Shown in pieces: positions 2,119 through 21,650 of a DNA stretch of 23,360 nucleotides. Each line of letters begins with the position of its first letter. Position 1 is the first letter of the stretch. A program made the translations under genes and the position numbers. Source of the DNA: Myxococcota bacterium (GTDB taxonomy: Bacteria > Myxococcota_C > UBA6777). Below the pieces are notes generated by a model. That model made no database searches. It was not told where the DNA came from and worked only from the letters and a program-made list of their open reading frames with translations. The stretch spans positions 1-23,360 of the forward strand of contig JAKLKB010000113.1 of assembly GCA_023150835.1 (NCBI GenBank). The letters run 5' to 3'.

Positions 2119-2132
2119 TTGATCTAGATCAA
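2119..2132. promoter_or_regulatory. FNR/DNR-type box upstream of nirS, site 1
   Basis: TTGATCTAGATCAA is a perfect palindrome that fits the Crp/FNR-family consensus TTGAT-N4-ATCAA exactly. It lies about 190 bp upstream of the nirS start. FNR, ANR, DNR and NNR proteins cannot be told apart from the site. The same 14-mer recurs before the porin gene. Confidence 0.8.
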
Positions 2133-2140
2133 GTTTTGGT

Positions 2141-2154
2141 CTGATAGCTATCAA
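2141..2154. promoter_or_regulatory. FNR/DNR-type box upstream of nirS, site 2
   Basis: CTGATAGCTATCAA differs from the consensus TTGAT-N4-ATCAA at one position. Its centre is 22 bp (two helical turns) downstream of site 1. A possible -10, TTTAAG at 2178-2183, would place the start near 2190, about 42 bp from the centre of this site, the class II activator spacing. The -10 is only a 4/6 match. Confidence 0.6.
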
Positions 2155-2322: not shown

Positions 2323-4692
2323 ATGAAAGAGCTCAAGATTCGGGCGAAGCATGGGTTCCCGTTGTTGTTGGGAGCGTTGTTGTGGATGATCGCAAGCAGC
2401 GGCCAACTGTGGGAAAACCGAGCTTCGGCAGGGGAGAAGCCCAATGCGGGCAAAGGATCAGGGGACAATCAAGTCCTCAAAGGGAAGCAAGTGCTTTCGA
2501 GTAAGGGCTGTGTGGCCTGTCACTCGGAAGATGGCTCAAAGCGCGTGGGACCGACGCTGCAAGGAGTGTTTGGGACGAAGCGCGAAGTGATCACCAACGG
2601 CAAGTTGCGGACGGTGGTGGCGGACGAGGCGTATATTCGGCTTTCGATTGAAAATCCGAAGGCGGATCTGGTGAAGGGATTCGAGAATTTGCCGATGGTC
2701 TCGCCTCGATTGAGGAAAGACGAGATGGATGCGGTGGTGGCTTACATCAAGAGCTTGGCGGTGCAAAAGAAGGTGGAAGCACCGACGCCCGCGACAGTCA
2801 CGGCGCTGGCGAAGTTGGGCCGAGATCTGGTGGAGAAGAAGGCCTGCACAACCTGTCACTCGTTGGATGGATCGCGAAAAGTCGCACCATCCTTTTTGAA
2901 CATCTATGGTCGGCAGACGACGGTGTTGTCGAAGGGATCGAAAGACAAGCGGACGTTTTCGGCGGATGAAGCGTATCTGCGTCGTTCGATCTTGGAGCCT
3001 GATGCGGAGCTTGTGACGGGGTATCACTTTAGTATGATGCCGCAGATCAAGTTGGAAACGGGCGAAGTGGACGCGATCTTGGCGTTTTTGAAGATCCACA
3101 AAGGCGAACCTGCGAAGGTGAAGGAAGAGGACAGCTTGCCGCCGTTGACGATGGCGGAGCGCACAAAGGCTTCGCAGATCTACTTCAACCGTTGTGCGGG
3201 TTGTCACGGGATGTTGCGCAAAGGTGCGACAGGACCGGCGTTGGTGCCGGAGCGCCTGCGTTCACGGAATCTGAACACGGCGAGCTTGCAAACCTTCATT
3301 ACATACGGTCTTCCGGGTGGGATGCCTGCATGGGGTCAAGCGGGTGTGCTTTCTCCGAGTGAAGTGGATCTGATTGCGCGGTTTTTGCAGCACCCACCGC
3401 CAGATCCAGCGGAGATGTCACTTGTAGAGATGCGCAAGAACTGGAAACTGTACATCGCCCCGAAAGATCGGCCCACCAAGCCAGAACACACGCGGGATTG
3501 GCAAAACTACCTTGGCGTGGTGCTTCGCGATGCGGGGAAAGTGGCTGTTTTGGATGGAAAAACCAAAGAAGTGATCTCGATCGTGCCGACAGGATTTGCG
3601 GTCCACATCCTGCGGTCTTCGGGGACGGGTCGTTATTTCTACTCGATCGGTCGAGATGGTCGGGTGACGATGATCGACTTGTGGATGAAAAAGCCCGCTG
3701 TTGTAGCGGAAGGCAAGACTTGCTATGACGCTCGTTCGGTGGATAGCAGCAAGTACAAAGGCAAGCTAGGCGATTATATGGACAAGCTGTTGATCGTGGG
3801 TTGCTATTGGCCGCCAAGCCTCGTGGTGATGGATGGCCAGACGTTGGAGCCAAAGAAAGTGGTTTCGACGAGCGGCTATACTTACGACACAGGCGAGTTC
3901 TTGCGCGAAGCGCGTGTTGCGGCGATCTCGGCATCGCACCATGCGCCCGTGTGGATCGTGAACATCAAAGAGACGGGTTATATCTGGGTGGTCGATTATC
4001 GGGACTTGAATAACTTGAAGATCTCGAATATCGCGGCAGAGCGTTTCTTGCATGACGGTGGTTTCGATGCTTCGCGGCGTTACATCTTGATGGCGGCAAA
4101 TGCGCGCCACTCGATCGCGGTGGTGGATCTGCACACGCAAAAGCTTACAGCGATGGTCAAAGTAGATGCGGTTCCTCACCCCGGGCGTGGGGCGAATATC
4201 GATCACAAGACGTACGGGCCGATCTGGTGTACGGGTCACTTGGGTGCGCCGACGATCGCTTGTTTGGGAACGGATCCTGAGAAACATCCGAAAAACGCAT
4301 GGAAAGTGGTGGGTCGGATGACGATGCCGGGTGCTGGCGGTGGAAACTTGTTTGTCAAGACGCATCCGAAATCTCGGTGGTTGTATGCGGATCGCACCTT
4401 GAATCCATCGTCTGCGTTGTATCGAACGATCTATGTGTTCGACAAGCAGACCTTCAAGCTAGTGAAAGAGTTGCCGATCCCGACCAAGTATCAGGGTCGT
4501 GCGGTCCATATCGAGTACAACAAAGACGGAACAGAGGCGTATATCTCGGCATGGAGTCCGATGAATCAACCTTCTGCGGTGCTTGTGTACGACGACAAGA
4601 CCTTGACACTCAAGCAAGAGATCACAGGAAACTGGATGGTGACACCCACAGGAAAATGGAACGTTTTCAATACGATGGGCGACATCTATTGA
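2323..4692 (+). CDS. nirS: Cytochrome cd1 nitrite reductase with two extra N-terminal cytochrome c domains
   Basis: Periplasmic enzyme that reduces nitrite to NO. It has 789 residues, against roughly 560-600 for typical NirS. The start has AGGAGGA at 2310-2316 and a signal peptide (residues 1-36, RASA/GE). Three haem c motifs are present: CVACH 63-67, CTTCH 175-179 and CAGCH 291-295. The first two domains are alike (CHS-x-DGS near the haem, DEAY, SI-x-P) and resemble the haem domain fused to Cox2-type oxidase subunits. The third, with distal-Met candidate GLPGGMPAW, is the normal NirS haem c domain. The d1 beta-propeller follows from about residue 380 to the end. It keeps the d1 axial ligand His428 (AVHI) and catalytic His577 (FLHDGG) and His619 (PHPGRGAN). 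The 42-residue spacing of the last two equals that of the Pseudomonas enzyme. First gene of the nir unit, behind two FNR-type boxes. The extra haems may replace a soluble donor. Confidence 0.95.
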   Translation: MKELKIRAKHGFPLLLGALLWMIASSGQLWENRASAGEKPNAGKGSGDNQVLKGKQVLSSKGCVACHSEDGSKRVGPTLQGVFGTKREVITNGKLRTVVADEAYIRLSIENPKADLVKGFENLPMVSPRLRKDEMDAVVAYIKSLAVQKKVEAPTPATVTALAKLGRDLVEKKACTTCHSLDGSRKVAPSFLNIYGRQTTVLSKGSKDKRTFSADEAYLRRSILEPDAELVTGYHFSMMPQIKLETGEVDAILAFLKIHKGEPAKVKEEDSLPPLTMAERTKASQIYFNRCAGCHGMLRKGATGPALVPERLRSRNLNTASLQTFITYGLPGGMPAWGQAGVLSPSEVDLIARFLQHPPPDPAEMSLVEMRKNWKLYIAPKDRPTKPEHTRDWQNYLGVVLRDAGKVAVLDGKTKEVISIVPTGFAVHILRSSGTGRYFYSIGRDGRVTMIDLWMKKPAVVAEGKTCYDARSVDSSKYKGKLGDYMDKLLIVGCYWPPSLVVMDGQTLEPKKVVSTSGYTYDTGEFLREARVAAISASHHAPVWIVNIKETGYIWVVDYRDLNNLKISNIAAERFLHDGGFDASRRYILMAANARHSIAVVDLHTQKLTAMVKVDAVPHPGRGANIDHKTYGPIWCTGHLGAPTIACLGTDPEKHPKNAWKVVGRMTMPGAGGGNLFVKTHPKSRWLYADRTLNPSSALYRTIYVFDKQTFKLVKELPIPTKYQGRAVHIEYNKDGTEAYISAWSPMNQPSAVLVYDDKTLTLKQEITGNWMVTPTGKWNVFNTMGDIY

Positions 4693-4774
4693 GGGCTGCT
4701 TGACAAGATCATGAAGTCATCCGACACAACCCCCTAGAACAGGCGACTGAAGGTGACAACGAAACCGCGCCTTG

Positions 4775-6769
4775 ATGATGGATAGAAAAGACATGATGTC
4801 GCAAAAAAAGTTTTGTTCTTTGATCTGTAGGCGCGGCGGGTATGGGCTTTTTGTGGTATGGGTTTGTGGGGTTGTGGGGGGCTTCTTGGTTTGGTTGGCT
4901 GCGCAGGAGGGGAGCGCTCAGACCTCTCGACCCACAACGCAGGCGCAATATAGGCGATCTGCGGTGTCGTTGCCCACCAAGCCAAGACCTCTCTTGCGAG
5001 GTCGCAGAGAGGGTAAGCCAAGCGTGTCCACGTCACGACACGCACACCGACGGCAAAATGTTCACTCCGTTCAAACGGGTATGCCGATCAAGGCCAACGC
5101 ATCGATGGCTCGACGTATGCGCAGACACCGACGGATCGATCCAAAGGAAGCGGCGTTTTTGCGACAAGGGGATCTTGCGACAGGACGGGCTTTGTACGCG
5201 CAACAATGCGCTTCTTGTCACCACGAACGTCGGCAGGGGCGGACGGGGTCGCCCTTGCTACCGTTGTTTTTGCGTCGTCGTTCGGTGGCGTGGTTGGATC
5301 GGGTGTTGGTGCATGGAAAAGCCGCCACTTTAATGCCGGGATTTCCGCGTCTTACGCCACCGCAAAGAGCCTCGATTATCCGTTATCTGCGGACTCCCGG
5401 GCGTGTCGTGTGGGGGGCCGCAGACGTACAAAAGAGTCTGGTGCTTTCGAGGGAGAAAGGCCATCCGTTTGTATTGTCGGATATTCGGGCGTTGACGGCG
5501 GTAGTGGAGCGTGGAAAGCAACAAGTGTGGTTGATGGAGGGGACGAAGATCCATGCGCGGTTTCCTGTGCAACATGTGCATGGTGGGATCAAGTTTCAGG
5601 CGGAGGGGAAGTCGCTGTTTGTGCCGTCGCGAGATGGTTGGGTGACGCGCTATGATGTACAAAAAGGTCGGTGGGATCGGCGTGTCCGTGCGTGTGTGTA
5701 TCTGCGCAATATCGCGTTGGTGCGGGGCGGGGAGTATGTGGTGGCGGCTTGTTGGTTGCCGCGAGCGTTGGTGATCTTGCGGGCAGAGACGCTTGAACCT
5801 GTGCGATTTTTGCCATTGGACGGGATGATCAGCGCGATCTACACCTCAAGCACACAGCAGCAAGCGATCTTTACGATGCAAGATCGGCCAGAGATCGGCT
5901 TTTTGGAGGCCAAGGACTGGTCTGTGCGCAAGGCTGCGTTGCGGGTGGCGCTGAGTGATTTTTTCTTAGACCCATCGCGTCGGTATCTTGTGGGGAGTTC
6001 GCCGCAAGCCAAGCGTCTGTTTGTCTATGATCTACACAGCCAAGCGTTTGTCTTTGATGCGCCGATATCGGGGATGCCGCATCTGTTTTCTGTGGCTTTT
6101 TGGTACGAAGAGGGGCGATTCTACTTTGCGACGCCGCACATGGGGACGGGGCGGATCAGTGTGTGGGAGATGTATCGTTGGCGTTTTGTGAAAGATATCG
6201 CCATCGGAGGGCCGGGGGCTTTTGTGCGAACGCATCCGATGACGCCGTATCTGTGGGCGGACAACGGCTCGGATCAGTTGGTGCTGATCGAAAAAAAGAC
6301 ATGGAAGGTCAAGAAGTTGCGTCCTGTGGCGGGGCGTCGTCTGATGCACACGGAGTTTTCGGCAGATGGGGTGCTGGCGTATCTGAGTGTGTTTGAAAAG
6401 GACGGCGCTTTGCTGATGATGGATGCGATCACGCTACAACAGCGGGGGATTTGGCCGGCGAGTTGGCCTGTCGGAAAGTATAATTTTATCAACAAACAAC
6501 AGCGCTATGCACCCGTACAGCTTGGTTATGAGGTGTTTATGGCGCGCTGCTGGGGGTGCCACCACACGACACAAACGGCCTTTGCGCCGTCTTTTCTGTC
6601 GATTGCGGAGAAACGCCATCCTGCGTGGATCCGCGCCCAACTCCTCGATCCAAAGCTCACCGCAAAGCACCTCGGTTACAAGCGCAGCGTGATGCCCAAG
6701 ATCCCCTTGCGCTCCGAGGAGATCGAAGTGTTGATTCGGTTTATCCTTGATCTCCCGAAGAACAAATGA
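4775..6769 (+). CDS. nirN: NirN-like haem d1 protein with cytochrome c domains at both ends
   Basis: A 664-residue periplasmic protein. It has an N-terminal export signal, a low-complexity Arg-rich stretch, a cytochrome c domain (CASCH 145-149, distal MPGF), a seven-blade d1-type propeller (about 220-570) and a second cytochrome c domain at the C-terminus (CWGCH 592-596, MPKIPL). NirN of Pseudomonas, about 490 residues with one haem c, oxidises dihydro-d1 to haem d1 and hands it to NirS. The FLHDGG and PHPGRG catalytic motifs of NirS are absent, so this is not a second nitrite reductase. The start is uncertain: ATG at 4775, 4778, 4793 or 4796 and TTG at 4772 are in frame and none has a strong ribosome site; 4793 or 4796 would give a cleaner signal peptide. 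It follows nirS after 82 bp and precedes nirJ by 9 bp. The C-terminal haem domain is not part of classical NirN. Confidence 0.82.
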   Translation: MMDRKDMMSQKKFCSLICRRGGYGLFVVWVCGVVGGFLVWLAAQEGSAQTSRPTTQAQYRRSAVSLPTKPRPLLRGRREGKPSVSTSRHAHRRQNVHSVQTGMPIKANASMARRMRRHRRIDPKEAAFLRQGDLATGRALYAQQCASCHHERRQGRTGSPLLPLFLRRRSVAWLDRVLVHGKAATLMPGFPRLTPPQRASIIRYLRTPGRVVWGAADVQKSLVLSREKGHPFVLSDIRALTAVVERGKQQVWLMEGTKIHARFPVQHVHGGIKFQAEGKSLFVPSRDGWVTRYDVQKGRWDRRVRACVYLRNIALVRGGEYVVAACWLPRALVILRAETLEPVRFLPLDGMISAIYTSSTQQQAIFTMQDRPEIGFLEAKDWSVRKAALRVALSDFFLDPSRRYLVGSSPQAKRLFVYDLHSQAFVFDAPISGMPHLFSVAFWYEEGRFYFATPHMGTGRISVWEMYRWRFVKDIAIGGPGAFVRTHPMTPYLWADNGSDQLVLIEKKTWKVKKLRPVAGRRLMHTEFSADGVLAYLSVFEKDGALLMMDAITLQQRGIWPASWPVGKYNFINKQQRYAPVQLGYEVFMARCWGCHHTTQTAFAPSFLSIAEKRHPAWIRAQLLDPKLTAKHLGYKRSVMPKIPLRSEEIEVLIRFILDLPKNK

Positions 6770-6778
6770 GGTGTATCC

Positions 6779-7879
6779 ATGTTACGGATCTCAGAGTATA
6801 TGCGCGACGCGCTCGAAGAAAAGCCGATCCGTCGAGCAGATATCGCGATCTTGATCTGGAACTTGACGAACCTCTGTAATCTTTTTTGCGAGCATTGTTA
6901 TGCAAACGCCCACACGCAAAAAGAAACAGAGCTTTCGCTTGAAGAGATCGACGCGATCTTGCCGCATCTTTGGCGGCAGGGAATCCGCTTTATCATCGTC
7001 TCAGGGGGAGAACCCCTTGTGCGCAAGGATCTCTTTGCGATCGCAGCGCGGATGAAGCAGCAAGGTTTTAAGACTTATCTATCGAGCAATGGTCTGCTGA
7101 TCAACGAAGACAATCTACCTGCGATCCAAGAGCATTTTGATTATGTAGGGATCAGCATTGACGGAAGGCCCGAAGTGCATGATCGCTTTCGGATGAAAAA
7201 AGGGGCTTTTGAGCGGTCGCTTCGGGCCTTGGAGATGTGCCATGCTGCGGGGATCCGCGTGGGGATGCGCTATACGCTGACGACGTTGACGTTGGACAGT
7301 CTGCCTTTTGTGCTGGATCTGGTCGAAGAGAAGGGCTTTCCGAAGCTGTATATCTCGCATCTTGTGTACGCGGGGCGTGCGCAGGCTTCGTTGGATCTTT
7401 CGCATGAGGCGTATCTTGGGGCGATGGAGACGATCTTGGGGCGAGCGTTCGATTGGTTGGAGCGGGATGCGCCGTATGACCTTGTGACGGGCAACAACGA
7501 AGCCGATGCGCGGCTGCTGTTGGACGCTTTTTCTGCGCGTTATCCGAGACATCGCGAGCATCTTGAGCGGCGGCTATTGACGTGGGGAGGCAATCAATCG
7601 GGGGCGCGTCTGGTCAATATCAACCATCGTGGGGATGTCAAACCTGATCCTTTCTTTCCTGTTTCGCTTGGAAATCTTCGCGAGCATGATTTCTCGCAGA
7701 TCTGGGAAGGCTTGCCCGATCAGCAGCCGCTGTTGCAAAGCCTGCGCGCTCATCCTCGCCCTGTTCATGGCAAGTGTGCGGACTGTTCTTCGCTGCTGTT
7801 TTGTAATGGCAACTCACGCGCCCGTGCCAAGGCGCTTTACGATGATTTTTTTGCGGAGGATCCATCATGCGCCCTCTAG
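6779..7879 (+). CDS. nirJ: Radical SAM haem d1 biosynthesis enzyme NirJ
   Basis: A 366-residue cytoplasmic enzyme. The radical SAM cluster motif is C33-x3-C37-x2-C40 (NLCNLFCEHCYA), followed by the SAM-binding GGEP (VSGGEPL, about 75-81). A C-terminal Cys-rich region (GKCADCSSLLFC, ending DPSCAL) should bind a second Fe-S cluster, as in the SPASM/twitch-type ends of NirJ. NirJ acts after siroheme decarboxylation and removes propionate side chains to give the d1 keto groups. The gene lies 9 bp after nirN with GAGGTG 5 bases before the ATG, and its 3' end overlaps nirF by 13 bp, which suggests translational coupling. AhbC/AhbD of the alternative haem pathway are relatives; the d1 gene context favours NirJ. 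Confidence 0.9.
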   Translation: MLRISEYMRDALEEKPIRRADIAILIWNLTNLCNLFCEHCYANAHTQKETELSLEEIDAILPHLWRQGIRFIIVSGGEPLVRKDLFAIAARMKQQGFKTYLSSNGLLINEDNLPAIQEHFDYVGISIDGRPEVHDRFRMKKGAFERSLRALEMCHAAGIRVGMRYTLTTLTLDSLPFVLDLVEEKGFPKLYISHLVYAGRAQASLDLSHEAYLGAMETILGRAFDWLERDAPYDLVTGNNEADARLLLDAFSARYPRHREHLERRLLTWGGNQSGARLVNINHRGDVKPDPFFPVSLGNLREHDFSQIWEGLPDQQPLLQSLRAHPRPVHGKCADCSSLLFCNGNSRARAKALYDDFFAEDPSCAL

Positions 7880-8958
7880 GGATTGTCTTTTGTGTGTGGG
7901 CGTCGTTGTGTAGCTTGGCGCACGCGGAGAGTGAGCTAAAGAAGGCATCCGAAAAAGTCTATGTGATCGAACGAGATCGCAGCCAGATCGCGGTGTTGCA
8001 ACACGGAAGGCTGTTGCGAGAGATCGGTGGATTGGGCAAGCTGCACCACGCGACGGTCAAGTTTTGGCGAGGGCATGGGTATCTGATCAGTCGTGATGGG
8101 TTGTTGTCGCAGATCGATCCGAAAACCGATCAGGTGATCCGCCAAGTTCGTGTAGGAAAAAGCAGCATTGCTTTGGATTTTGTGGGATCTTGGATCGCGG
8201 TGGCCAACTATGCGCCGCAGGATGTGGTGTTTTTGGATGCGCAATTGAAGATCCACAAGCGCCTCGTCACAGGTTCCCGCAACGTGGGGATCAAAAGCTG
8301 GCGCGAGCTTTTGGTGGTGGCGCTGATGGATCGCGATGCCTTGTGGGTCTTGGATAGCCAAAAGGGATTTCGTGTCGTTCATCGCGTTGAAAAAGCAGGG
8401 AAAATGCCTTATGACGCGCTGATCGCGGGTTCGTTTTATTTGAGTGCCTTTTTCAAAGAGCGGCAGATCGGTGTGTTGGATCTCGAAAAGAAAGTGTATC
8501 GGCGGGTGTTGTTGCCGATCGCAAAAGAGGGAGTTCCGTACAAGATCCCGCACTTTGGGATGTGGGGAGTGTGGGAAGGCATGGCGTACTTGCCCGTTGC
8601 AGGCTCACAGCAGTTGGCGAAGGTGGATCTGGCGCGTTTTCGGCGGGACGGGCAGATCATGTTAACGGGTTTGCCGGTCTTTGCGGTGCTTTCCGCTGAC
8701 GGTCATTCTCTTGCGGTGAATTATAGCGGTGAGATGCAAGATTTTCTGACAATTATCCAGCGGAAAGATGGAAAGATCTTGCGTCACTTTCGTGCAGGAA
8801 AGCGTATTATGCACTTACGCTTCTCTCCAGACAGCAAGCGACTGTACCTGTCTTCTTATTTTGATCACAAAGTGCGTGTTTTTTCTGTAAAGCCTTGGCA
8901 GAAGCTCGCTTCTGTTGTTGTCCCCACACCTTCTGGCCTTTTTATGGTGCAGCCATGA
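7867..8958 (+). CDS. nirF: Haem d1 biosynthesis protein NirF
   Basis: A 363-residue periplasmic protein with no haem c motif. The signal peptide is residues 1-20 (cleavage AHA/ES). No proper lipobox is seen, unlike the lipid-anchored NirF reported in some species. The rest is a d1-type propeller with features shared by NirF: VYVIERDRSQIAVL at the mature start, GRLLREIGGLGKLHHA, the MPYDAL blade motif, PHFGMWG, and LRFSPDSKRLYLS near the end. NirF is required for late d1 maturation and can convert or carry the d1 precursor. It overlaps nirJ by 13 bp and nirE by 4 bp (ATGA). Confidence 0.9.
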   Translation: MRPLGIVFCVWASLCSLAHAESELKKASEKVYVIERDRSQIAVLQHGRLLREIGGLGKLHHATVKFWRGHGYLISRDGLLSQIDPKTDQVIRQVRVGKSSIALDFVGSWIAVANYAPQDVVFLDAQLKIHKRLVTGSRNVGIKSWRELLVVALMDRDALWVLDSQKGFRVVHRVEKAGKMPYDALIAGSFYLSAFFKERQIGVLDLEKKVYRRVLLPIAKEGVPYKIPHFGMWGVWEGMAYLPVAGSQQLAKVDLARFRRDGQIMLTGLPVFAVLSADGHSLAVNYSGEMQDFLTIIQRKDGKILRHFRAGKRIMHLRFSPDSKRLYLSSYFDHKVRVFSVKPWQKLASVVVPTPSGLFMVQP

Positions 8959-9818
8959 ACAAAAAAACAGGTAAAGTGTATCTTGTGGGCGCGGGTCCGG
9001 GCGACCCTGAGTTGATGACGAGAAAAGCGTATCGGCTTGTGCAACAAGCCGATGTGATCTTGTATGATCGGCTGGTGAATACGGATATGCTGGAAGATAT
9101 CAAGGATGGGTGTCAGTTGGTGTATGTAGGAAAAAAAGAGGGTCTGCACGTGATCCCCCAAGAGGAGATCAACCGACTGTTGCGGGATTATGCGCTGCGC
9201 TATCCGTTGGTGGTGCGTTTGAAAGGTGGCGATCCTTTTCTGTTTGGGCGAGGCGGCGAAGAAGCCCTGTACTTGCGTGAGTGTTGCATCCCGTTTGAGA
9301 TCGTGCCGGGGGTGACGTCGGCGTTGGGGGCACCTGCGTACGCGGGGATCCCTGTGACGCATCGAGGGATGGCGTCGATGTGTTCGATGATTACGGGACA
9401 TTTGGCAAAAGAAGAAGTGGATGAGCTGCCATGGGATGCGTTGGCAGCGATGCAGACGCTGATCTTTATGATGGCGGTGGGAGCGCGCCAATACATCGCA
9501 CAACAGCTTTTGGCGCATGGTCGCCCCGAAGAGGAGCCTGTGGCGTTTATCGAACATGGGACGACGTCGAAACAACGAGTGACACGAACGACGCTAGGCG
9601 TGCTTGCGCGAACCCCGCCAGCAGTGCGCTCGCCCGCGATCCTTTTGGTGGGAGAAGTGGCACGCCTTCACGAAGAACTCGATTGGTTTTCTGCGGCAAG
9701 CGATCTTCCTCATCTTCCCGGGCTAGAAGTGATGGAAGTCGGCGATCAGGGGGTGGTCTTGGCGGATACACGGGGGCAAGGAGAAGGCGAGAAGCAGGAA
9801 AGCGAGGTGCTGCCGTGA
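8955..9818 (+). CDS. nirE: Uroporphyrinogen III C-methyltransferase (NirE/CobA)
   Basis: A 287-residue cytoplasmic SAM-dependent methyltransferase. It makes precorrin-2 from uroporphyrinogen III, the branch point towards haem d1. The motifs are VGAGPGDP (11-18) and LKGGDPFLFGRGGEE (89-103), then PGVTSA, PAYAGIPVTHRG and ITGH in the usual order. The length matches single-domain SUMT, so no CysG oxidase/chelatase or HemD domain is fused; the oxidase/chelatase step to sirohaem must be encoded elsewhere. The ATG overlaps the nirF stop as ATGA, and the stop overlaps the next start as GTGA, so translation is coupled on both sides. The location inside the d1 cluster favours the name nirE over cobA. 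Confidence 0.92.
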   Translation: MNKKTGKVYLVGAGPGDPELMTRKAYRLVQQADVILYDRLVNTDMLEDIKDGCQLVYVGKKEGLHVIPQEEINRLLRDYALRYPLVVRLKGGDPFLFGRGGEEALYLRECCIPFEIVPGVTSALGAPAYAGIPVTHRGMASMCSMITGHLAKEEVDELPWDALAAMQTLIFMMAVGARQYIAQQLLAHGRPEEEPVAFIEHGTTSKQRVTRTTLGVLARTPPAVRSPAILLVGEVARLHEELDWFSAASDLPHLPGLEVMEVGDQGVVLADTRGQGEGEKQESEVLP

Positions 9819-10846
9819 TCGACAAAGAAGCCCTGTTGATCCGCGCACAACAAGGGATCGGACTGGTCGAGCGACCTTATGCAGAGATCGCCCAAGATCT
9901 CGGCGGTACAGAAGACGAAGTGCTTTCAGGACTGCGTGCGTTGATCGGAGACAAGATGATCCGTTCACTTGCGCCGATCTATGATACGCGCAAGATGAAC
10001 TACGATAGCGCTTTGGTGGCTTTTGAAGTGGAGCCGCAGCGGATCGAGTCGGCTGCTGCGGTGGTAAGCACACATCCGGGCGTGAGCCATAATTATGAGC
10101 GGCCCCACGCCTATAATCTGTGGTTTACATTGGCCGTTCCAACCACTTCTTCTTTGGGGCTTGATCGCACAGTAAAGGTGCTCGGACAACAAGCCGAAGT
10201 AAAGGACGTTGCGATCTTGCGGGCAAAAAAAACCTTCAAGATCGGTGTAAAGCTTGATCCAAAACGTTCTTCTTTTCAACGCGAGTCTTCTCGGGTAATG
10301 GAGATGGCGGATCGTCCTTTGTCTGTATCGGAGCAAGAGGCCATCCGTGTGACGCAGGGAGCTTTGGCGTTGGTGTCTCGTCCTTTTGGAGTGTATGCCG
10401 AAGCGCTTGGGATCACAGAAGAAACGCTGCTTGGGTGTCTTCGCGGCTTGCAGATGCGGGGCGTTTTGCGTCGCATCGCGGCGGTGGCTTTTCATCGCAA
10501 ACTGGGGTTTGAAGCCAACGGCATGGCGGTGTGGCAGGTTTCCGAAGAAAAAGCGCTCGAAGTGGGTCCGCAGATGGCCTCTTTTTCGGCTATCTCGCAT
10601 TGTTACCTACGAGAAGCCAGCGCGGGTTGGAAGCACAATCTGTTTGCGATGATCCATGGGAAAGAAAAACAAGAAGTTCAAGATATCGTCTCAAAAATAC
10701 AAGAGGAAGTAAAACTTCCTGAGGCGATGATTCTGTTTTCATCAAGAGAGTTCAAGAAACAACGGATCTTGTATTTTTCTCAAGAAGCAGAAGAATGGGA
10801 GCGGCGTTGGGGGATATCGTCACCCCTCGCGATCCATGAGGCATAA
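9815..10846 (+). CDS. nirDL: Fused two-domain sirohaem decarboxylase (NirDL/NirGH type)
   Basis: A 343-residue cytoplasmic protein made of two AsnC/Lrp-like halves. The first (about 1-155) has an N-terminal helix-turn-helix and the motif SHNYERPHAYNLWFTL. The second (about 170-343) has a matching helix-turn-helix (ALALVSRPFGVYAEALGI) and CYLREASAGWKHNLFAMIHG. The halves correspond to the paired subunits NirD/NirL or NirG/NirH (AhbA/AhbB in the alternative haem route). Those pairs decarboxylate sirohaem at two acetate groups to give didecarboxysirohaem. One fused chain here replaces up to four genes, and no other copy is in the window. The start is GTG at 9815, overlapping the nirE stop by 4 bp. 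Confidence 0.88.
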   Translation: MIDKEALLIRAQQGIGLVERPYAEIAQDLGGTEDEVLSGLRALIGDKMIRSLAPIYDTRKMNYDSALVAFEVEPQRIESAAAVVSTHPGVSHNYERPHAYNLWFTLAVPTTSSLGLDRTVKVLGQQAEVKDVAILRAKKTFKIGVKLDPKRSSFQRESSRVMEMADRPLSVSEQEAIRVTQGALALVSRPFGVYAEALGITEETLLGCLRGLQMRGVLRRIAAVAFHRKLGFEANGMAVWQVSEEKALEVGPQMASFSAISHCYLREASAGWKHNLFAMIHGKEKQEVQDIVSKIQEEVKLPEAMILFSSREFKKQRILYFSQEAEEWERRWGISSPLAIHEA

Positions 10847-10852
10847 AAACAG

Positions 10853-11944
10853 ATGTCAAGGGAAGATGTGCAGGCACAAGAAGACAAGCAACAACTGCGT
10901 TGGTTTCAGGGTGTTGTGTGGGTGGCTTTGTTTGGGACGCTTGTCTTGGGTCTGATCATGCGCTGGATGTTGGCGGGGGCTATCTTTCCATCTTGGATGT
11001 CTTTTCGTTTCTTCAAACACGCACACTCGCATCTAGGTTATTTCGCGGTATTGTTTCCTTTGGTGTGGGCTTGTTGGTGGAAACAAGAAGGCTTTTCTTT
11101 AGGAAAAGGCTGGCGGCTTGTGTATGTGTGGGGTGTGATCCTCAGCACGATAGGATTTTTGCGTGCGGGCTACGCGGTGGATTCGATCCTCGGCTCGACG
11201 GTGGTGTTGGGTGTGTGGTTGTATGTTGCGTGGGCACAACGCGCTCTGTCGATGCGTCGGGAGGATTGGCTGTCTTTTGCTCCGTTGGGGATCGTCTTGG
11301 GCGCGATCTGCATCCCGCCGATCGCCGTGTTGAGCCGTCGTGATCCCGGGATGGCGGTGTTGTGGGTCAAGACCTTTTTGAGTCTACTGATCTTTTTGGT
11401 CGTGTTGCCAGCCGTTTTTTCGCGGCTGTCACTTCAAGCCCCCCCGCGTTGGCTTTGGTATGGTGTCTCTTTTGCGTCTTCGTGTTTTCTTGGGATCGAG
11501 CCTTGGCCTTGGTTGGGGGGAGGACTGGTGGGGATGGGGGGGTGGTTGTTGTGGGCCTTGCGAAGAGGCACGCTTCCGTGGGATATCCGCAGTGCATGGT
11601 TTTTTTGGGCGGCCTCCATGATCTTGGTGGGATGTCGGGTGGTTTCTTACGATCATTTTCTGGGCATTGCAGGGATCCATTATACGCTGTTGGCTCCGTT
11701 TTTTCTATCCTGTTGGTGGATCTTTTTTGAGCGTTTCCCTCCTGCATGGCTGCGCTTTCCCTACCTGTTTTTTGTACTCGGGATGTGTGCTGCGATCGCG
11801 GGGCTGTCTTGGTTTCCCAAGCACGCGCTTTGGTTTTCGCGGGCCTCTGCGGTATTTGGCTCTTTGCTTGTTTTGTGGCTTGTGTTCCTTGCTGTGTTTG
11901 TTGTAGGCTCTCGCCACAAATCGAGAGGTATCGTTTCGGTTTGA
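10853..11944 (+). CDS. Polytopic membrane protein of unknown function, HAHSH motif
   Basis: A 363-residue protein with about eleven or twelve hydrophobic segments after a short soluble N-terminus (1-20). The first loop/helix holds HAHSH (56-60), followed by LGYFAVLFPL. Such clustered His at a membrane face could bind haem or metal, as in NnrS and haem-copper oxidase relatives. I do not recognise a named family with confidence. It starts 6 bp after nirDL, so it belongs to the nir transcript, and its stop codon lies inside the FNR-type box that precedes norC. A role in NO handling, haem delivery or assembly of the nir/nor proteins is inferred from position only. Confidence 0.8.
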   Translation: MSREDVQAQEDKQQLRWFQGVVWVALFGTLVLGLIMRWMLAGAIFPSWMSFRFFKHAHSHLGYFAVLFPLVWACWWKQEGFSLGKGWRLVYVWGVILSTIGFLRAGYAVDSILGSTVVLGVWLYVAWAQRALSMRREDWLSFAPLGIVLGAICIPPIAVLSRRDPGMAVLWVKTFLSLLIFLVVLPAVFSRLSLQAPPRWLWYGVSFASSCFLGIEPWPWLGGGLVGMGGWLLWALRRGTLPWDIRSAWFFWAASMILVGCRVVSYDHFLGIAGIHYTLLAPFFLSCWWIFFERFPPAWLRFPYLFFVLGMCAAIAGLSWFPKHALWFSRASAVFGSLLVLWLVFLAVFVVGSRHKSRGIVSV

Positions 11945-11954
11945 TCTGCGTCAA
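11941..11954. promoter_or_regulatory. FNR/DNR-type box upstream of norC
   Basis: TTGATCTGCGTCAA fits TTGAT-N4-GTCAA, a common form of DNR/NNR sites. It is about 93 bp upstream of the norC ATG and contains the TGA stop of the preceding gene (11942-11944). No convincing -10 was found at the class II distance. Confidence 0.65.
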
Positions 11955-12046
11955 GAGCCGTGTTGATACGGATCATGTGTGTTTGGCATTGTAGACTTAT
12001 TAGTCCATAGATTCTGTGGTCTATATTCATGCAGGAGGTGAAGACC

Positions 12047-12838
12047 ATGCTCTCGAAGTCGCAAGCGCGAACGTTCTTTTTGGTGGGGACATTGTTGTTT
12101 TCTGTGCTGTTTTTGTTTCTAACGATCGATACGGTGCGTCAAGTACCAGCGCAGACGCGGGCGAAGAACATTACGCCGGCGGTGGCGCGGGGGAAACATC
12201 TGTGGGATCAGAACAACTGTATGGGTTGTCATACGTTGTTGGGGGAAGGTGCCTATTATGCGCCTGAGTTGACGAAGGTGTATGAGCGCAGGGGCGCAGC
12301 GTGGATGGATGTGTTTTTGAAAGATCCTCAAGCGATGTTTCCCGGGCAGCGCAAGATGGTGAAGTACAAGTTTAGCGATCAAGATCGCCAAGACTTGATC
12401 GCCTTTTTCAAATGGATCGGGGAGATGGACCTGAACGGTTTTCCGCCGCGTCCATCGCGAGATCTGAATGCGGGTTTGCCTGCACAAGTGACTCCGCCCG
12501 CCCCGCCAAGCACCCGCGCCGATGTCCCTGCGCCGCGCCCGACAACACAGCCTTCCTCCCAAGCCGCGACACGCGTTGGGGCCGCTCCCCAAGTCGCTGC
12601 TGCGCCTGCGATGCCCGTCAAGTTCCAGCAGCTTTGCGTTGCGTGCCATATGCTTGGTGGAAAAGGTGGGCGTGTGGGTCCTGCGTTGGACGGTGTTGGG
12701 AAAAAGTACAATGTCACTTCTTTGCGCAAGTGGCTTGAAGATCCGCAAGGCGTCAAGCCGGGAACTGCGATGCCCAAACTGCCCTTTACTGCGCAAGAAC
12801 TGGATCAGATGGTTGCCTTCTTGTTGGCGCAAAAATAA
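12047..12838 (+). CDS. norC: Nitric oxide reductase cytochrome c subunit NorC, fused to a second cytochrome c domain
   Basis: A 263-residue protein anchored in the inner membrane by one N-terminal helix (about 9-28) and facing the periplasm. Residues 30-145 are typical NorC: WDQNNCMGCHTLLGEGAYYAPEL, with haem motif CMGCH 58-62, and DLNGFPP near the end. A Pro/Ala/Thr-rich linker (about 147-185) leads to a second haem c domain with CVACH 197-201, GPALDGVGKKY and a distal-Met candidate AMPKLPF. Ordinary NorC has about 150 residues and one haem. NorC passes electrons to NorB. The ATG at 12047 has AGGAGGTG at 12033-12040; an in-frame ATG at 12029 precedes that site and is rejected. norB follows after 91 bp. 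Confidence 0.95.
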   Translation: MLSKSQARTFFLVGTLLFSVLFLFLTIDTVRQVPAQTRAKNITPAVARGKHLWDQNNCMGCHTLLGEGAYYAPELTKVYERRGAAWMDVFLKDPQAMFPGQRKMVKYKFSDQDRQDLIAFFKWIGEMDLNGFPPRPSRDLNAGLPAQVTPPAPPSTRADVPAPRPTTQPSSQAATRVGAAPQVAAAPAMPVKFQQLCVACHMLGGKGGRVGPALDGVGKKYNVTSLRKWLEDPQGVKPGTAMPKLPFTAQELDQMVAFLLAQK

Positions 12839-12929
12839 GAGAAAAATGGAACTCAAGTTAAAGAGAAAACAGATATCTGCTGAGCGAACAACAAAGTATC
12901 CTTGCGTAGGATAGCGAGGAGGAGTGAGT

Positions 12930-14366
12930 ATGAAATTTAAATCACAAAAGGTGGCATACTGGTTCTTTGCTGCGTGTATGTTGCTGCTGACGTTGCAGTT
13001 GACGTACGGATTTATTATGGCGTTTGCCCACATGGGGTTGGATGGTCTGCACGATTATATCCCCTTCAATGCGGCACGTGCGACGCATACAAACCTCTTG
13101 GTGGTGTGGCTTTTGACCGGTTTTATGGGCGCAACACATTTTATCATCCCCGAAGAAGCGGATCGCGAACTGCACTCGGTTCCGTTGGCCTATCTTCAAT
13201 TGGTCTCTCTCTTGGTTGTCGGTGTGGTGGCGATCATCGGTTTCCATTTGAACTGGTGGGAAGGTCGCAAGTTTCTTGAGATCCCTCGCCCATTGGATTA
13301 TCTCGTGGTGGTCAACGTCTTGTTGTTCATCTACAACATCGGGATGACCGTGTGGAACGGAAAACGCTTTACCACCACGGGGATCGTTTTGTTTATGGGT
13401 CTTTTTTCGGCGGCGCTGCTGTATCTTCCCGGCATGATCTATTTTACCAACCATACCTTTGATTCGTACTTCCGATGGTGGGTTGTCCACCTGTGGGTGG
13501 AAGGGGTTTGGGAACTGATCATGGGTGCGATCTTGGCGTATCTCTTGATCAAATTGACTGGCGTGGATCGTGAAGTCATCGAAAAATGGTTGTATGTGAT
13601 CGTCGGTTTGACCTTTTTGTCGGGTATTTTGGGAACTGGCCACCATTACTACTACATCGGGACGCCTCGCTATTGGCTGTGGATCGGTGGTTTGTTTTCG
13701 GCGCTTGAGCCGTTGGCCTTTTTGGGGATGGCGCTGTTTGCGGTGGCGATGTACCGACGCAGCGGTCGCCAACATCCGAACAAGATCTCGCTGTATTGGA
13801 CGGTGGGTTGTGCGATTATGGCGTTTGTGGGTGCAGGATTTTTGGGCTTCGCTCATACGCTCCCCCAAGTCAACATGTATACACACGGGACGCTGGTTAC
13901 TGCAATGCACGGTCACTTGGCGTTTTGGGGAGCCTACGCGATGATCGTGTTGGCGATTATCACCTACTCGATGCCTTTGATGACGGGCCGCAAGCTATGG
14001 AACAATATGCCCGGCCTTCTGGCTTTCTGGACATCCAACATCGGTATGGTCGGGATGACGGGAGCTTTTGCGGTGGCGGGTATCGCGCAAGTCTATCTGG
14101 AGCGCAAGCTCGGTCTGGACTTTATGGTTGTGCAAAAAGAGATCGAAGTGCATTTCTTTGGGTTGACGCTCGCTGCGACGCTGTTCTCGGTAGGAATTAC
14201 CTTGTTCATCTATAACTTTATCAAGCATGGCTTGCCACGCGATGAGATGGTCGGCGATCAGTCCTTGGATGCCGAGTGGGTAGAACCCCACCAAGCACAG
14301 ACTGTTAGCGCTGCGCCTGCACCCGAAAAAAGCACCCCCAAAACAGGCAAAAAAGCAAAAGCCTAA
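12930..14366 (+). CDS. norB: Nitric oxide reductase catalytic subunit NorB (cNor type)
   Basis: A 478-residue inner-membrane protein with about twelve helices that reduces two NO to N2O. Ligands in the expected spacing: His53 (RATHTNLLVVW) and His329 for the low-spin haem b; His187, His238 and His239 for FeB; His327 for haem b3. The cNor signature HLWVEGVWE (187-195) carries the two conserved Glu residues (191 and 195), which marks NO reductase rather than oxidase. Spacings 187-238 and 187-327 equal those of Pseudomonas NorB. There is no quinol-oxidising N-terminal extension, in line with the presence of NorC. The ATG at 12930 has AGGAGGAG 5 bases upstream; the GTG at 12924 is within that site. 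The C-terminal tail after about residue 440 is Ala/Lys-rich and soluble. Confidence 0.97.
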   Translation: MKFKSQKVAYWFFAACMLLLTLQLTYGFIMAFAHMGLDGLHDYIPFNAARATHTNLLVVWLLTGFMGATHFIIPEEADRELHSVPLAYLQLVSLLVVGVVAIIGFHLNWWEGRKFLEIPRPLDYLVVVNVLLFIYNIGMTVWNGKRFTTTGIVLFMGLFSAALLYLPGMIYFTNHTFDSYFRWWVVHLWVEGVWELIMGAILAYLLIKLTGVDREVIEKWLYVIVGLTFLSGILGTGHHYYYIGTPRYWLWIGGLFSALEPLAFLGMALFAVAMYRRSGRQHPNKISLYWTVGCAIMAFVGAGFLGFAHTLPQVNMYTHGTLVTAMHGHLAFWGAYAMIVLAIITYSMPLMTGRKLWNNMPGLLAFWTSNIGMVGMTGAFAVAGIAQVYLERKLGLDFMVVQKEIEVHFFGLTLAATLFSVGITLFIYNFIKHGLPRDEMVGDQSLDAEWVEPHQAQTVSAAPAPEKSTPKTGKKAKA

Positions 14367-14646: not shown

Positions 14647-14676
14647 GCATGGGGTGACTTGCGGGTCGCCCCATGC
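14647..14676 (+). other. Strong hairpin in the norQ leader
   Basis: GCATGGGGTGAC (14647-14658) pairs with GTCGCCCCATGC (14665-14676) over 12 positions with one G-T wobble; the loop is TTGCGG. It ends 55 bases before the norQ ATG. No T tract follows, so it is more likely an RNA stability or processing structure, or a repeat, than a terminator. Confidence 0.6.
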
Positions 14677-14731
14677 GCATCGCGCCGATGTTTTGCGCAA
14701 AACGGGCAGAGCGAAGGCAAAGGAGCGGAAG

Positions 14732-15547
14732 ATGGATGGAGCAACGACCGTGCAAAAAGAAAAAGATTCAGAACAAGTACTGCCTTTTTATCAGCCAGTA
14801 CGCAAAGAAATCGAAGTGTTTACGCATGCAGCAAAGCATAATCTTCCCGTTCTTTTGAAAGGTCCTACAGGAACAGGTAAGTCTCGTTTTGTGCAATATA
14901 TGGCTGCGAAATTAGGACGCCGTTTAATTACGGTGTCGTGTCATGAAGAGACTTCAGCGGTCGATCTTTTAGGACGTTATCTTGTGAAAGGTGCTGAGAC
15001 GCTTTGGATGGACGGCCCGTTGACGCGGGCTGTTCGCGAAGGCGCTGTCTTGTACATCGACGAGATCGCGGAAGCGCGCCCTGACACGATCGTGGTGTTG
15101 CATTCGCTGACGGATCATCGCCGTGTGTTGTATCTTGACCGTCACGACGAAGAGATCGAAGCGGCGGAAGGCTTTTTGTTGGTGGCTTCTTTCAACCCCG
15201 GTTATCAAGGGGCGTGGAAAGAACTGAAGCCTTCCACGCGCCAGCGCTTTGTTTCGTTGCACTTTGATTACCCCGCGCCAGCGCTCGAAGCGCAGATCTT
15301 GAGTGCGGAAAGCGATGTGGACGAAAAGACGGCAGGACAATTGGTCAAGATGGCAGGGAAGATCCGGAATCTGCACCACCTTGGCTTGGCAGAGTCTGTC
15401 TCGACGCGGCTTTTGGTGGATACCGCCAAGTTGATCCAGTCGGGACTTCCGCCGCGATTGGCTTGCGAAGTGGGTATTGTTGAGCCATTGACGGATGATC
15501 GGGAGGTCGCTCGGTCGTTGATGGATCTGATCGCGCTGCATATCTAA
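14732..15547 (+). CDS. norQ: MoxR-type AAA+ ATPase NorQ, NO reductase activation
   Basis: A 271-residue cytoplasmic ATPase of the MoxR/CbbQ/NorQ group. Walker A is GPTGTGKS (44-51), Walker B is LYIDEI with Asp110-Glu111, and SFNPGYQG serves as the sensor region. NorQ works with NorD to insert the non-haem iron FeB into NorB. The ATG at 14732 was chosen because AAAGGAG ends 6 bases upstream and the protein then has the usual length; earlier starts would add about 26 residues translated through the leader hairpin. Its last codons lie in the first unit of a 47-bp tandem repeat. Confidence 0.93.
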   Translation: MDGATTVQKEKDSEQVLPFYQPVRKEIEVFTHAAKHNLPVLLKGPTGTGKSRFVQYMAAKLGRRLITVSCHEETSAVDLLGRYLVKGAETLWMDGPLTRAVREGAVLYIDEIAEARPDTIVVLHSLTDHRRVLYLDRHDEEIEAAEGFLLVASFNPGYQGAWKELKPSTRQRFVSLHFDYPAPALEAQILSAESDVDEKTAGQLVKMAGKIRNLHHLGLAESVSTRLLVDTAKLIQSGLPPRLACEVGIVEPLTDDREVARSLMDLIALHI

Positions 15548-15632
15548 AGAACGCGTACAGGCGTTGGTTTGGTCGGTTCGCGCTGCATATCTAAAGAACG
15601 CGCACAGGCGTTGGCTTGGTCGGCTCGCGTTG
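15531..15632 (+). repeat. 47-bp tandem duplication spanning the norQ stop
   Basis: Units start at 15531 and 15578, with a partial third at 15625. The units share TCGCGCTGCATATCTAAAG and, with a few T/C changes, the remaining 28 bases. The first unit holds the last codons and TAA (15545-15547) of norQ, so the second is a copy of a gene end. The spacing between norQ and norD is produced by this duplication. Confidence 0.85.
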
Positions 15633-15658
15633 TTTTTCAAGGCAAAGGTGGGTGCAAG

Positions 15659-17434
15659 ATGGAATGGGATCAGTGGTTATTTCGCAGTGCTTTGCGGTTG
15701 TGGCAACGCATCCGCCATACAGGGCCTGATCCTGCGATCGTAGCGCGTCGGGTGTCTCTTGAGGACGAAAAAAAACGCCTTGAAGTGATCGCCAAAGCCC
15801 TAACAGGGCGTCCGATCCAGCTCCATCGTGCAGAACAAGAAGGCGGGCGGATCGGCGATATCTTCTTTTTGCCTGAGCAGAGTAGTTTCTTTTCGACACA
15901 AGAAAAAAACCGAGATCTGTATCTTTTCCGCGTCTGTTTTTTATCCGCAGATCTCTTGCTGTCTTTTCGCCTTCGTCGCAACAAAGAAGGCGAAGCAGCG
16001 GCAGAGAAAGAGCGCGAGCTTTCAGTCGGAGAAGTTCTGACGTGGATGAAAGCACAGTGGCCGGGGATGGAGGAATGGTCGAAGGCTTTGATCGAAGAAG
16101 CCGAAGACGCACAGCGCAGCGAAGATCCCCAACGGATGCGTTGTTTGTTTGCGCGCTCGGGCGATCAGGGAGATCTTGCGGACTTTGGGATCTATCACGA
16201 TCCACTCAATCCGAAACAAGGCGAAGATGAGGACGAAGAAGAGAAAAAAGATATCTCTGAGCGAAAAGCGCCGCCAAGAGAAAAAGTTGAAGTCTTGCAG
16301 ATCGACAAGAAAACGATGCAAGATTATACGCTGATGCACCAATTTGAAAAGATCGAGACGCTCGACGATTTTAATGGGCGTTGGCGAGACATGGACGGTG
16401 CGGATGAGATGGAGGCGCACGAAGAAGCGTTGCAAGAGCTGGACATGCGGCAAGTGGTACGCGCAGACTCAGTGACGCACTCGGTGTATCAGGCTGATTT
16501 TTTGGCTTCTGCTGCGGCTCCTGAGGTCGAAGGTGATCAAAGCACACAGCCTTTTCTGCTGTACCCCGAATGGGATCCGAAAAAAAAGGTTTTGCGCCCG
16601 GACCATTGCAAAGTCTATCTCGAAGAAAGTGATCGCGAAGACGCGAGTGTCCTCGCACAGACGCTCTCCGCTCATCGCCTCACCATGCAAAGGCTGCGCA
16701 AAAATCTGATGCGTTTTCGCAATATGCGTCAGGTCTTGCGGCGTCAAACAGACGGTGAATTTCCTGATATGGATGCGTTGATTGATGCTTATGGCCAGAG
16801 AAAAGCAGGACGTTTAGACGACGATCGCGTTTACCTTTCACGTCGGCTTTTTCGCCGTGATCTTGCGGTTTCTATCTTGATGGATGTCAGCTTGAGTACG
16901 GATGGCTATTCAGGCGGTCGGCGGGTCTTGGACGTAGAAAAGCAAGCCGTTTTGATGTTCGGGCAGTTGCTGCAAGAACAAGGAGAAGCCTTTCGGATCG
17001 ATGCGTTTTGGTCGAAGACGCGAAACCAGTGCCATTATATCCAGATCAAAGATTTTCGAGACGGATGGGCGACGGCTTCTTCGCGGATCGGCGGGTTGCG
17101 TCCTGTAGGCTATACGCGGATCGGCCCGGCCTTGCGGCATGCCACCACGTTGCTGCGTGGGCAGCCTGCGCGACGGCGTTGGATCTTGCTGTTGTCCGAT
17201 GGAAAACCCAACGATTATGATCGATACGAAGGCCAACATGGGATCGCAGACGTGCGCCAAGCCATCCGAGAGGCCGAGCAGGCCGGTGTGCGGGTGTATG
17301 CGCTCGCTGTGGAGCAAGAGGCACGGCATTATCTACCGCAGATGCTCGGACACGCCAACTATCAGATCCTTTCGCGCCCTGAAGAACTTCCCGAAGCAAT
17401 GTTGTTTTTTTACACGCGTTTGTTGGCCTCTTAA
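15659..17434 (+). CDS. norD: von Willebrand A-domain protein NorD
   Basis: A 591-residue cytoplasmic protein. The C-terminal vWA domain (about 400-591) has the MIDAS motif DVSLS (409-413) and LLSDGKPND (Asp514) in the typical NorD form; MLGHANYQIL and a terminal LFFYTRLL complete the domain. The middle (about 190-235) is rich in Glu, Asp and Lys. The ATG at 15659 is used because AAAGG lies 10 bases upstream and MEWDQWLF begins a plausible protein; an earlier in-frame start at 15569 would translate the tandem duplication. NorD partners the ATPase NorQ in NorB maturation. Confidence 0.93.
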   Translation: MEWDQWLFRSALRLWQRIRHTGPDPAIVARRVSLEDEKKRLEVIAKALTGRPIQLHRAEQEGGRIGDIFFLPEQSSFFSTQEKNRDLYLFRVCFLSADLLLSFRLRRNKEGEAAAEKERELSVGEVLTWMKAQWPGMEEWSKALIEEAEDAQRSEDPQRMRCLFARSGDQGDLADFGIYHDPLNPKQGEDEDEEEKKDISERKAPPREKVEVLQIDKKTMQDYTLMHQFEKIETLDDFNGRWRDMDGADEMEAHEEALQELDMRQVVRADSVTHSVYQADFLASAAAPEVEGDQSTQPFLLYPEWDPKKKVLRPDHCKVYLEESDREDASVLAQTLSAHRLTMQRLRKNLMRFRNMRQVLRRQTDGEFPDMDALIDAYGQRKAGRLDDDRVYLSRRLFRRDLAVSILMDVSLSTDGYSGGRRVLDVEKQAVLMFGQLLQEQGEAFRIDAFWSKTRNQCHYIQIKDFRDGWATASSRIGGLRPVGYTRIGPALRHATTLLRGQPARRRWILLLSDGKPNDYDRYEGQHGIADVRQAIREAEQAGVRVYALAVEQEARHYLPQMLGHANYQILSRPEELPEAMLFFYTRLLAS

Positions 17435-20719: not shown

Positions 20720-20733
20720 TTGATGTATATCAA
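20720..20733. promoter_or_regulatory. FNR/DNR-type box between nnrS and the second Rrf2 gene
   Basis: TTGATGTATATCAA matches TTGAT-N4-ATCAA exactly. Its centre is 94 bp from the nnrS start and about 153 bp from the Rrf2 start, so nnrS is the likelier target. It sits in the 247-bp divergent intergenic region (20633-20879), where no gene is seen. Confidence 0.75.
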
Positions 20734-21332: not shown

Positions 21333-21650
21333 TGGAATTCGATATCGTTTGAGATTCGAAATGGCGGGGTGAAAGGGCGAAGGGGATTCAAAGCAGAGGT
21401 TGAGATATCCGTCTGAAATGAAAAAAGCGAACCACTTGATTTTTATGTTCTTTTTCGTGCTGTTGCATACGTTTCATTTGATCTAGATCAATCTATTCGT
21501 TGAGTCAAACCAAGCAAAAAGCGTTTTTGTCGATAGATCTGTCCCTTGAAGAAAGTGGAGGTTGATGTCCTCAATGTAGGCACGCAGCAAAGAGTTGTGC
21601 AGCGGGTGCGGTACAAAGCGGCGTGCATCGGATGAAATGAGGAGGCTACC
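21333..21650 (+). other. 318-bp intergenic region before the porin gene
   Basis: No gene is supported. It holds the FNR-type box at 21478-21491 and the porin ribosome site AGGAGG at 21640-21645. If the box acts at the usual class II position, the porin transcript would have a leader of about 125 bases. No clear terminator for the preceding Rrf2 gene was seen. Confidence 0.6.
21478..21491. promoter_or_regulatory. FNR/DNR-type box upstream of the porin
   Basis: TTGATCTAGATCAA is identical over all 14 bases, spacer included, to nirS site 1. It is 160 bp upstream of the porin ATG. No good -10 stands at the class II distance. Confidence 0.75.

Follow-up and report, generated by a model that had tools for sequence, protein, structure and literature searches.

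Introduction

The closest described relative of the protein analyzed here is the C1-C2-NirS fusion of Chloroflexi. In this fusion, an added N-terminal cytochrome c domain is thought to act as a built-in electron donor of the nitrite reductase (Schwartz et al. 2022, PMC8756737). The architecture was called unique to Chloroflexi, and the fusion loci were reported to lie without a nir/nor operon around them (PMC8756737). In the text of a later phylogeny, which covers about 540 NirS, the Chloroflexi fusion is the sole one mentioned (PMC10999283). Our literature search on multi-haem NirS returned the Chloroflexi paper and subsequent work citing it, and no other report.

A second described system is the electron entry into caa3 oxidases. 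In Rhodothermus marinus, ActE of alternative complex III (ACIII) passes electrons directly to the cytochrome c domain of the caa3 subunit CoxB, and an ACIII-caa3 supercomplex has been seen at low resolution (PMC5928083). In F. johnsoniae, the transfer to caa3 is attributed to a mobile ActA domain, and ActE is dispensable (PMC8552683). Herein, a stretch of 23,360 nucleotides from a Myxococcota bacterium (contig JAKLKB010000113.1), referred to as the window, was analyzed. It carries a nitrite reductase gene that relates to both systems.

Results

Domain organization of the predicted NirS

The nirS gene (2323..4692, forward strand; 789 aa, ATG start) is predicted to encode a cytochrome cd1 nitrite reductase in which three c-type haem domains precede a single d1 propeller. 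Residues 1-40 (2323..2442) read as a signal peptide or signal anchor without a lipobox cysteine. Residues 14-25 form a helix in the structure model, and residues 1-40 are the least constrained part of the protein (dN/dS 0.56, from few sites). They are followed on the same strand by the extra cytochrome c domains D1 (residues 44-149; 2452..2769) and D2 (residues 154-268; 2782..3126), then by the ordinary NirS haem c domain, C2 (residues 272-359; 3136..3399), and the eight-bladed haem d1 propeller (residues 385-789; 3475..4689). Pfam matched Cytochrom_C in two stretches (6.5e-23), Cytochrome_CBB3 at residues 282-355 (1.2e-19), and Cytochrom_D1 at residues 392-784 (9.1e-115).

The initial annotation had described three CxxCH motifs before an intact d1 propeller with both catalytic histidines, and this description was verified. 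The motifs lie at residues 63-67 (nt 2509-2523), 175-179 (2845-2859), and 291-295 (3193-3207), giving the cysteine-histidine pairs C63-H67, C175-H179, and C291-H295. By PDB alignment, His428 corresponds to the d1 ligand His200 of Paracoccus, and His577 and His619 correspond to the catalytic His345 and His388. The C2 ligands C291-H295 and Met334 are invariant in 49 sequences.

In the PDB search, the cd1 of Paracoccus pantotrophus aligned from residue 272 onward (E 1e-176), and the cd1 nitrite reductase of Pseudomonas aeruginosa likewise aligned from residue 272 (E about 1e-176). The best PDB matches were NirS, well above NirN, and the protein falls among NirS in the tree. The full-length model matched the Paracoccus cd1 structure with a Z of 61.5; D1 was poorly resolved in this model. 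These data place 2323-4692 as a complete ordinary NirS core with about 230 residues added N-terminally. Taken jointly with the electron relay discussed below, it is reasonably probable that the predicted protein works as a cytochrome cd1 nitrite reductase converting nitrite to NO.

The added domains are of the caa3 subunit II type

When D1 and D2 were searched alone, the best PDB match of each was 1w2l, the cytochrome c domain of the Rhodothermus marinus caa3 oxidase subunit II (7.6e-14 for D1 and 6e-18 for D2). This structure was far ahead of every other structure for both domains. A fold model of the D1-D2 pair, for which CoxB domains were included in the alignment, matched 1w2l with a Z of 15.9, and the next structure reached 10.9. 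Each domain was resolved in the pair model; their mutual placement was not confident (pTM 0.53). The closest relatives in other genomes, from a profile run over 145 genomes, were mostly caa3 CoxB proteins. This count is supporting and not decisive, because the profile was made from D1/D2 domains and the host's own related cytochromes and some of its rows were non-NirS. In trees, D1, D2, and the extra domain of a third family member (G002) sit among CoxB domains. The domain searches, the trees, and the fold match all agree with the initial annotation, which had called the added domains Cox2-type rather than NirM or NirC type, and on sequence grounds D1 and D2 are assigned to the caa3 CoxB type. 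D1 and D2 belong to the same domain family as 1w2l; however, the CoxB domain is carried on a CuA cupredoxin/membrane subunit, whereas D1 and D2 are carried on a nitrite reductase. Pfam gave no match to COX2 or COX2_TM (the CuA cupredoxin and the transmembrane hairpin) in the window NirS.

The axial motif differs between the two domains. D2 has an axial MMP. D1 has LPM in the window and IPM in G002, and one of these two readings is present in all three sequences, whereas CoxB domains have MP. Because LPM replaces the axial MP, the haem ligation of D1, including the sixth ligand and the potential, is uncertain.

The two added domains had been described as clearly duplicated from each other. They are indeed 39% identical; however, the identity of D1 to a foreign CoxB domain is higher (49%), and the clade uniting D1 with D2 is weakly supported (68/54). 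A simple tandem duplication is possible, and so is joint capture from a CoxB with two c haems, as found at loci L175, L186, and L190. The host's own caa3 CoxB was also considered as the direct source; it was weakly rejected (AU p 0.02) and is probably not the source.

The fusion is found in a second species

The window genome is a draft in 239 contigs, which leaves room for the reading, also raised in the initial annotation, that a cytochrome gene was wrongly joined to nirS by assembly or annotation. However, a second species of the genus (G001, locus L007) has the identical nirS architecture at 98% identity, in the same operon place, with the same set of genes downstream in the same order. 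In the third family member (G002, locus L008), NirS is 685 aa long and has a single extra domain; it is a two-c-haem form. The linkers are short and in frame, and the base composition of the extra region is unremarkable. Between the two closest species, dN/dS was 0.09 for D1, 0.011 for D2, 0.014 for C2, and 0.030 for d1. These low values, well below 1 in the extra region, indicate that the added domains are kept by selection. The second species, the intermediate form, and the purifying selection together rule out a misassembly or a wrong start, and an artefact of this kind is considered extremely improbable.

Multi-c-haem NirS in other groups and the separate origin of the window form

The NirS tree was built from 98 distinct cores, collected in a single scan over 84,980 genomes and in several surveys of whole genomes. 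The window clade is nested among NirS with one c haem, namely L013 ('bacterium BF2.bins.44'), Aquificota, and Planctomycetota. The one-c-haem NirS of Aquificota and L013 have the closest cores outside the family, with up to about 65% identity. They have a NirN-like neighbour with two c haems, as in the window, but lack D1 and D2.

NirS with more than one c haem occurs in several other groups. In Chloroflexota, at least two c haems were found in 10/10 NirS-bearing genomes (sample of 400). In a Woeseiaceae-type order of Gammaproteobacteria (L103-L132), 28 of the 30 loci inspected had a two-c-haem NirS. The two-c-haem form is the normal form in this order, and no report of it was found in the literature. 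Single cases of two-c-haem NirS came from Acidimicrobiia, Bipolaricaulota, and Thermoanaerobaculia. Apart from the window clade, three c haems were found in one NirS, that of Anaerolineae co234_bin11 (L046:7848-10235). The initial annotation had implied that the window architecture was unique, and this does not hold, since a NirS with one extra domain had already been described in Chloroflexi (PMC8756737), and the present survey revealed further NirS with two or three c haems. It had also considered that the three-haem form might be standard in a known clade. Two-c-haem forms are standard elsewhere, but no known clade was found with the caa3-type three-c-haem form as its standard. The multi-c-haem NirS in other groups contradict the statement that the fusion is confined to Chloroflexi.

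The multi-haem forms differ from one another in the added domains and in the cores. The Chloroflexi C1-C2-NirS and the window NirS both have an added N-terminal cytochrome c; however, the single domain added in the Chloroflexi form belongs to a different cytochrome c subtype and contains a long insert, whereas the window form has two of CoxB type, and the Chloroflexi core is far from the window core in the tree. The Woeseiaceae-type NirS also has an extra N-terminal cytochrome c, but of a different type and with a spacing of about 155 residues. Its core lies on the Paracoccus side of the tree, and its gain is separate from that of the window (AU p 1e-4). The Anaerolineae NirS (L046) has three c haems and d1 in one chain, as in the window, but its extras are a Chloroflexi C1 domain preceded by a cytochrome of a different type, with an origin separate from the window.

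Along the NirS tree, the number of c haems, used as a label, shows no fewer than five to seven changes, a count that does not by itself distinguish gains from losses. AU tests on the NirS core rejected the union of the window clade with the Chloroflexota multi-haem type (p 1e-66) and with the Woeseiaceae type (p 1e-4), which rules out a shared origin with either on the core. Uniting the two three-c-haem forms, from the window and L046, was also rejected (p 7e-62). These rejections and the different cytochrome types indicate that the fusion of cytochrome c to NirS arose several separate times.

In the domain tree, the Chloroflexi-type C1 domains form a separate clade (98/95), and the extra domain of G002 groups with the window D1 (99/95); a common origin of the added domains with the Chloroflexi C1 domain could not be rejected by this short domain tree alone (p 0.30). 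The combined placements assign the gain of D1 and D2 to the family's own lineage, with one of the two domains probably gained before the other. On this evidence, the window NirS is placed as a rare, separately evolved version of an already described NirS-cytochrome c fusion.

The nir-nor cluster and its predicted regulation

The cluster runs in the order nirS, NirN-like, nirJ, nirF, SUMT, fused sirohaem decarboxylase, membrane protein, NorC, NorB, norQ, norD, Rrf2 regulator, and nnrS. The NirN-like d1-propeller protein (4772..6769, forward strand; 665 aa) has a cytochrome c domain at each end. A two-c-haem NirN-like gene 3' of nirS is standard in Aquificota, L013, and L041. Because it is normal for these one-c-haem relatives, this neighbour is not tied to the NirS fusion. 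The next genes, all on the forward strand, are a nirJ-like radical SAM protein (6779..7879; TIGR04051 at 1.5e-111, below the curated cut-off), a nirF-like d1 propeller without a cytochrome c domain (7867..8958), a uroporphyrinogen III methyltransferase of SUMT/NirE type (8895..9818; TP_methylase 1.5e-51), and a fused two-module sirohaem decarboxylase of NirDL/GH, AhbA-AhbB type (9431..10846, with a true start probably near 9810). Between the d1 genes and norC lies a membrane protein of 363 aa without a Pfam match (10853-11944), and the sister species has an ORF of the same length at the matching place.

The nor genes follow on the forward strand. The NorC-like subunit (12029..12838) has two c-haem motifs, whereas the usual NorC has one; the two-motif form is also present in the sister species (L207:14089-14871). 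It is followed by a NorB-like haem-copper subunit (12924..14366; assigned by COX1 at 2.8e-58 and gene context) and by a norQ-type AAA ATPase with a norD-like VWA protein (14654..17434). A 47-bp direct repeat in two copies (15531-15629) lies at the norQ end and norD start. At the end of the window, a tandem repeat of period 41 with about 9.6 copies (22967-23360) runs past the window end.

A perfect FNR/DNR-type box, TTGATCTAGATCAA, lies upstream of nirS (2119..2132, forward strand), and a second box with 1 mismatch follows 22 bp on (2141..2154, forward strand). A pair with the same 22-bp spacing lies upstream of norC (11941..11976, forward strand). Single boxes are found between nnrS and the divergent Rrf2 gene (20720-20733) and before a porin-like gene (21478-21491). 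Six FNR/DNR-type sites were counted in the window, and none of 100 window shuffles reached six. The nirS and norC boxes stand at matching sites in the sister species. The paired boxes at matching sites in both species point to control of nirS together with nor by low oxygen or NO.

No nirM- or nirC-type small cytochrome gene was found in the window, as the initial annotation had noted; the other cytochrome c domains in the window are only those of the NirN-like ORF and NorC. This is relevant to the reading that D1 and D2 take the place of NirC/NirM in maturation, as electron donors or acceptors while haem d1 is inserted and not during turnover. A small neighbouring cytochrome gene is rare at multi-c-haem loci and present at many one-c-haem loci, which is suggestive. 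This contrast is confounded and is not proof, because of kinship among the loci and because the Chloroflexi loci were reported without a nir operon (PMC8756737). However, the extra C-terminal cytochrome c domain of the NirN-like neighbour might stand in for NirC, and the same NirN-like arrangement accompanies the one-c-haem NirS of Aquificota, L013, and L041. The maturation role is therefore judged very unlikely.

Candidate electron donors in the genome

The initial annotation had proposed a membrane donor such as the bc1 complex, with no soluble cytochrome. A bc1-type cytochrome b (PF13631) was not found in the window genome or in the sister species, and the control genomes were positive. The bc1 complex is not supported as the donor, as its cytochrome b was not found in the window genome, and ACIII is present instead. 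G002, with its two-c-haem NirS, has one cytochrome b match (PF13631), so reliance on ACIII alone need not hold for the whole family.

On contig C238, ActD and an ActE-like cytochrome of ACIII precede CoxB (which carries a cytochrome c domain of its own), CoxA, CoxC, and CoxD, the last in fusion with a cytochrome c. In the sister species, a 1113-aa ORF at the ActB position and Fe-S, NrfD, and ActD subunits form one cluster with the caa3 genes. ActB, ActE, and ActF were assigned from gene order. ACIII thus lies next to a caa3 oxidase in the window genome. The nir and act genes sit on different contigs, with no positional link. Two proteins inside the ACIII-caa3 operon of contig C238 carry fused or repeated cytochromes, namely the CoxD (COX4_pro)-cytochrome c fusion (L209:10246-11226) and a protein with two c haems whose cytochrome repeats are nearly identical (L209:15957-17210). 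Fusions of cytochromes to respiratory proteins are frequent in this lineage.

The census of c-type cytochromes in the window genome (PF00034 and PF13442, read by eye) contained no short free-standing soluble member. The remaining c-type cytochromes in the census are fused, membrane-bound, or lipoprotein-like. The genome is 93% complete, so the absence of a soluble carrier is not proven. The census fits the carrier-free part of the initial proposal. Lipoprotein-like monohaem cytochromes (C202 and C120) are present, and C202 and other membrane cytochromes could serve as NirS donors.

Discussion

A proposed built-in relay through D1 and D2

The arrangement of domains is best explained by a built-in relay from a membrane donor through D1 and D2, with ACIII as the proposed donor, and we regard this explanation as the probable one. 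Electrons from menaquinol would enter ACIII (ActA/ActE haems), pass to the D1/D2 haems of NirS, then to the ordinary haem c of C2, and finally to haem d1, where nitrite would be reduced to NO. The NO would then pass to NorBC encoded downstream. The order of the haems in this relay is a suggested one. That electrons flow through D1 and D2 is quite likely. As ACIII is known to feed caa3 through a CoxB-type domain, D1 and D2 are proposed to receive electrons from ACIII, and this identification of the donor is more tentative, with a chance somewhat short of even. In NirS, the CoxB-type domains would have the role that they have in caa3, namely to take electrons straight from a membrane quinol-oxidising complex. 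Soluble cytochrome c551 (NirM) would be dispensable, because D1 and D2 would accept these electrons directly. A stable carrier-free ACIII-NirS supercomplex, held through the borrowed caa3-type domain as the denitrification counterpart of the ACIII-caa3 supercomplex, is a more speculative and rather unlikely extension.

NirS elsewhere receives electrons from c551 or azurin. D1 and D2 might accordingly offer a larger docking surface or a tether to mobile or lipid-anchored cytochromes, or to a cupredoxin or HiPIP, so that a shuttle and not ACIII would still deliver the electrons. The lipoprotein-like cytochromes C202 and C120 agree with this reading, which we give roughly one chance among four in our weighing. 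It is opposed by the census, in which no short soluble class I cytochrome was found with PF00034 and PF13442, and by the CoxB type of D1 and D2, which is the type that accepts electrons directly from ACIII in R. marinus (PMC5928083).

The extra haems might also serve mainly as an electron store for quick re-reduction of haem d1, so that NO would be released, or nitrite turned over, faster. In cd1 enzymes, it matters for NO release how fast d1 is re-reduced, and with three c haems, three electrons would be stored next to haem d1. However, a store would leave the donor-binding CoxB type of D1 and D2 unexplained, and we consider it improbable compared with the relay from a membrane donor.

Implications for denitrification

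The data indicate that nitrite reductase was fitted with built-in cytochromes several separate times, against the published Chloroflexi-only statement. The module on the window NirS is the one used by oxygen-reducing caa3 oxidases. In the literature searched, no description of electron transfer from ACIII to NirS was found. If ACIII feeds NirS directly, denitrification would be possible without bc1 or a soluble cytochrome c, by a route for which no description was found. If true, such an ACIII-NirS route would change the genome-based prediction of denitrification. The fusion itself suggests that nitrite respiration may proceed in this organism without a free electron shuttle.
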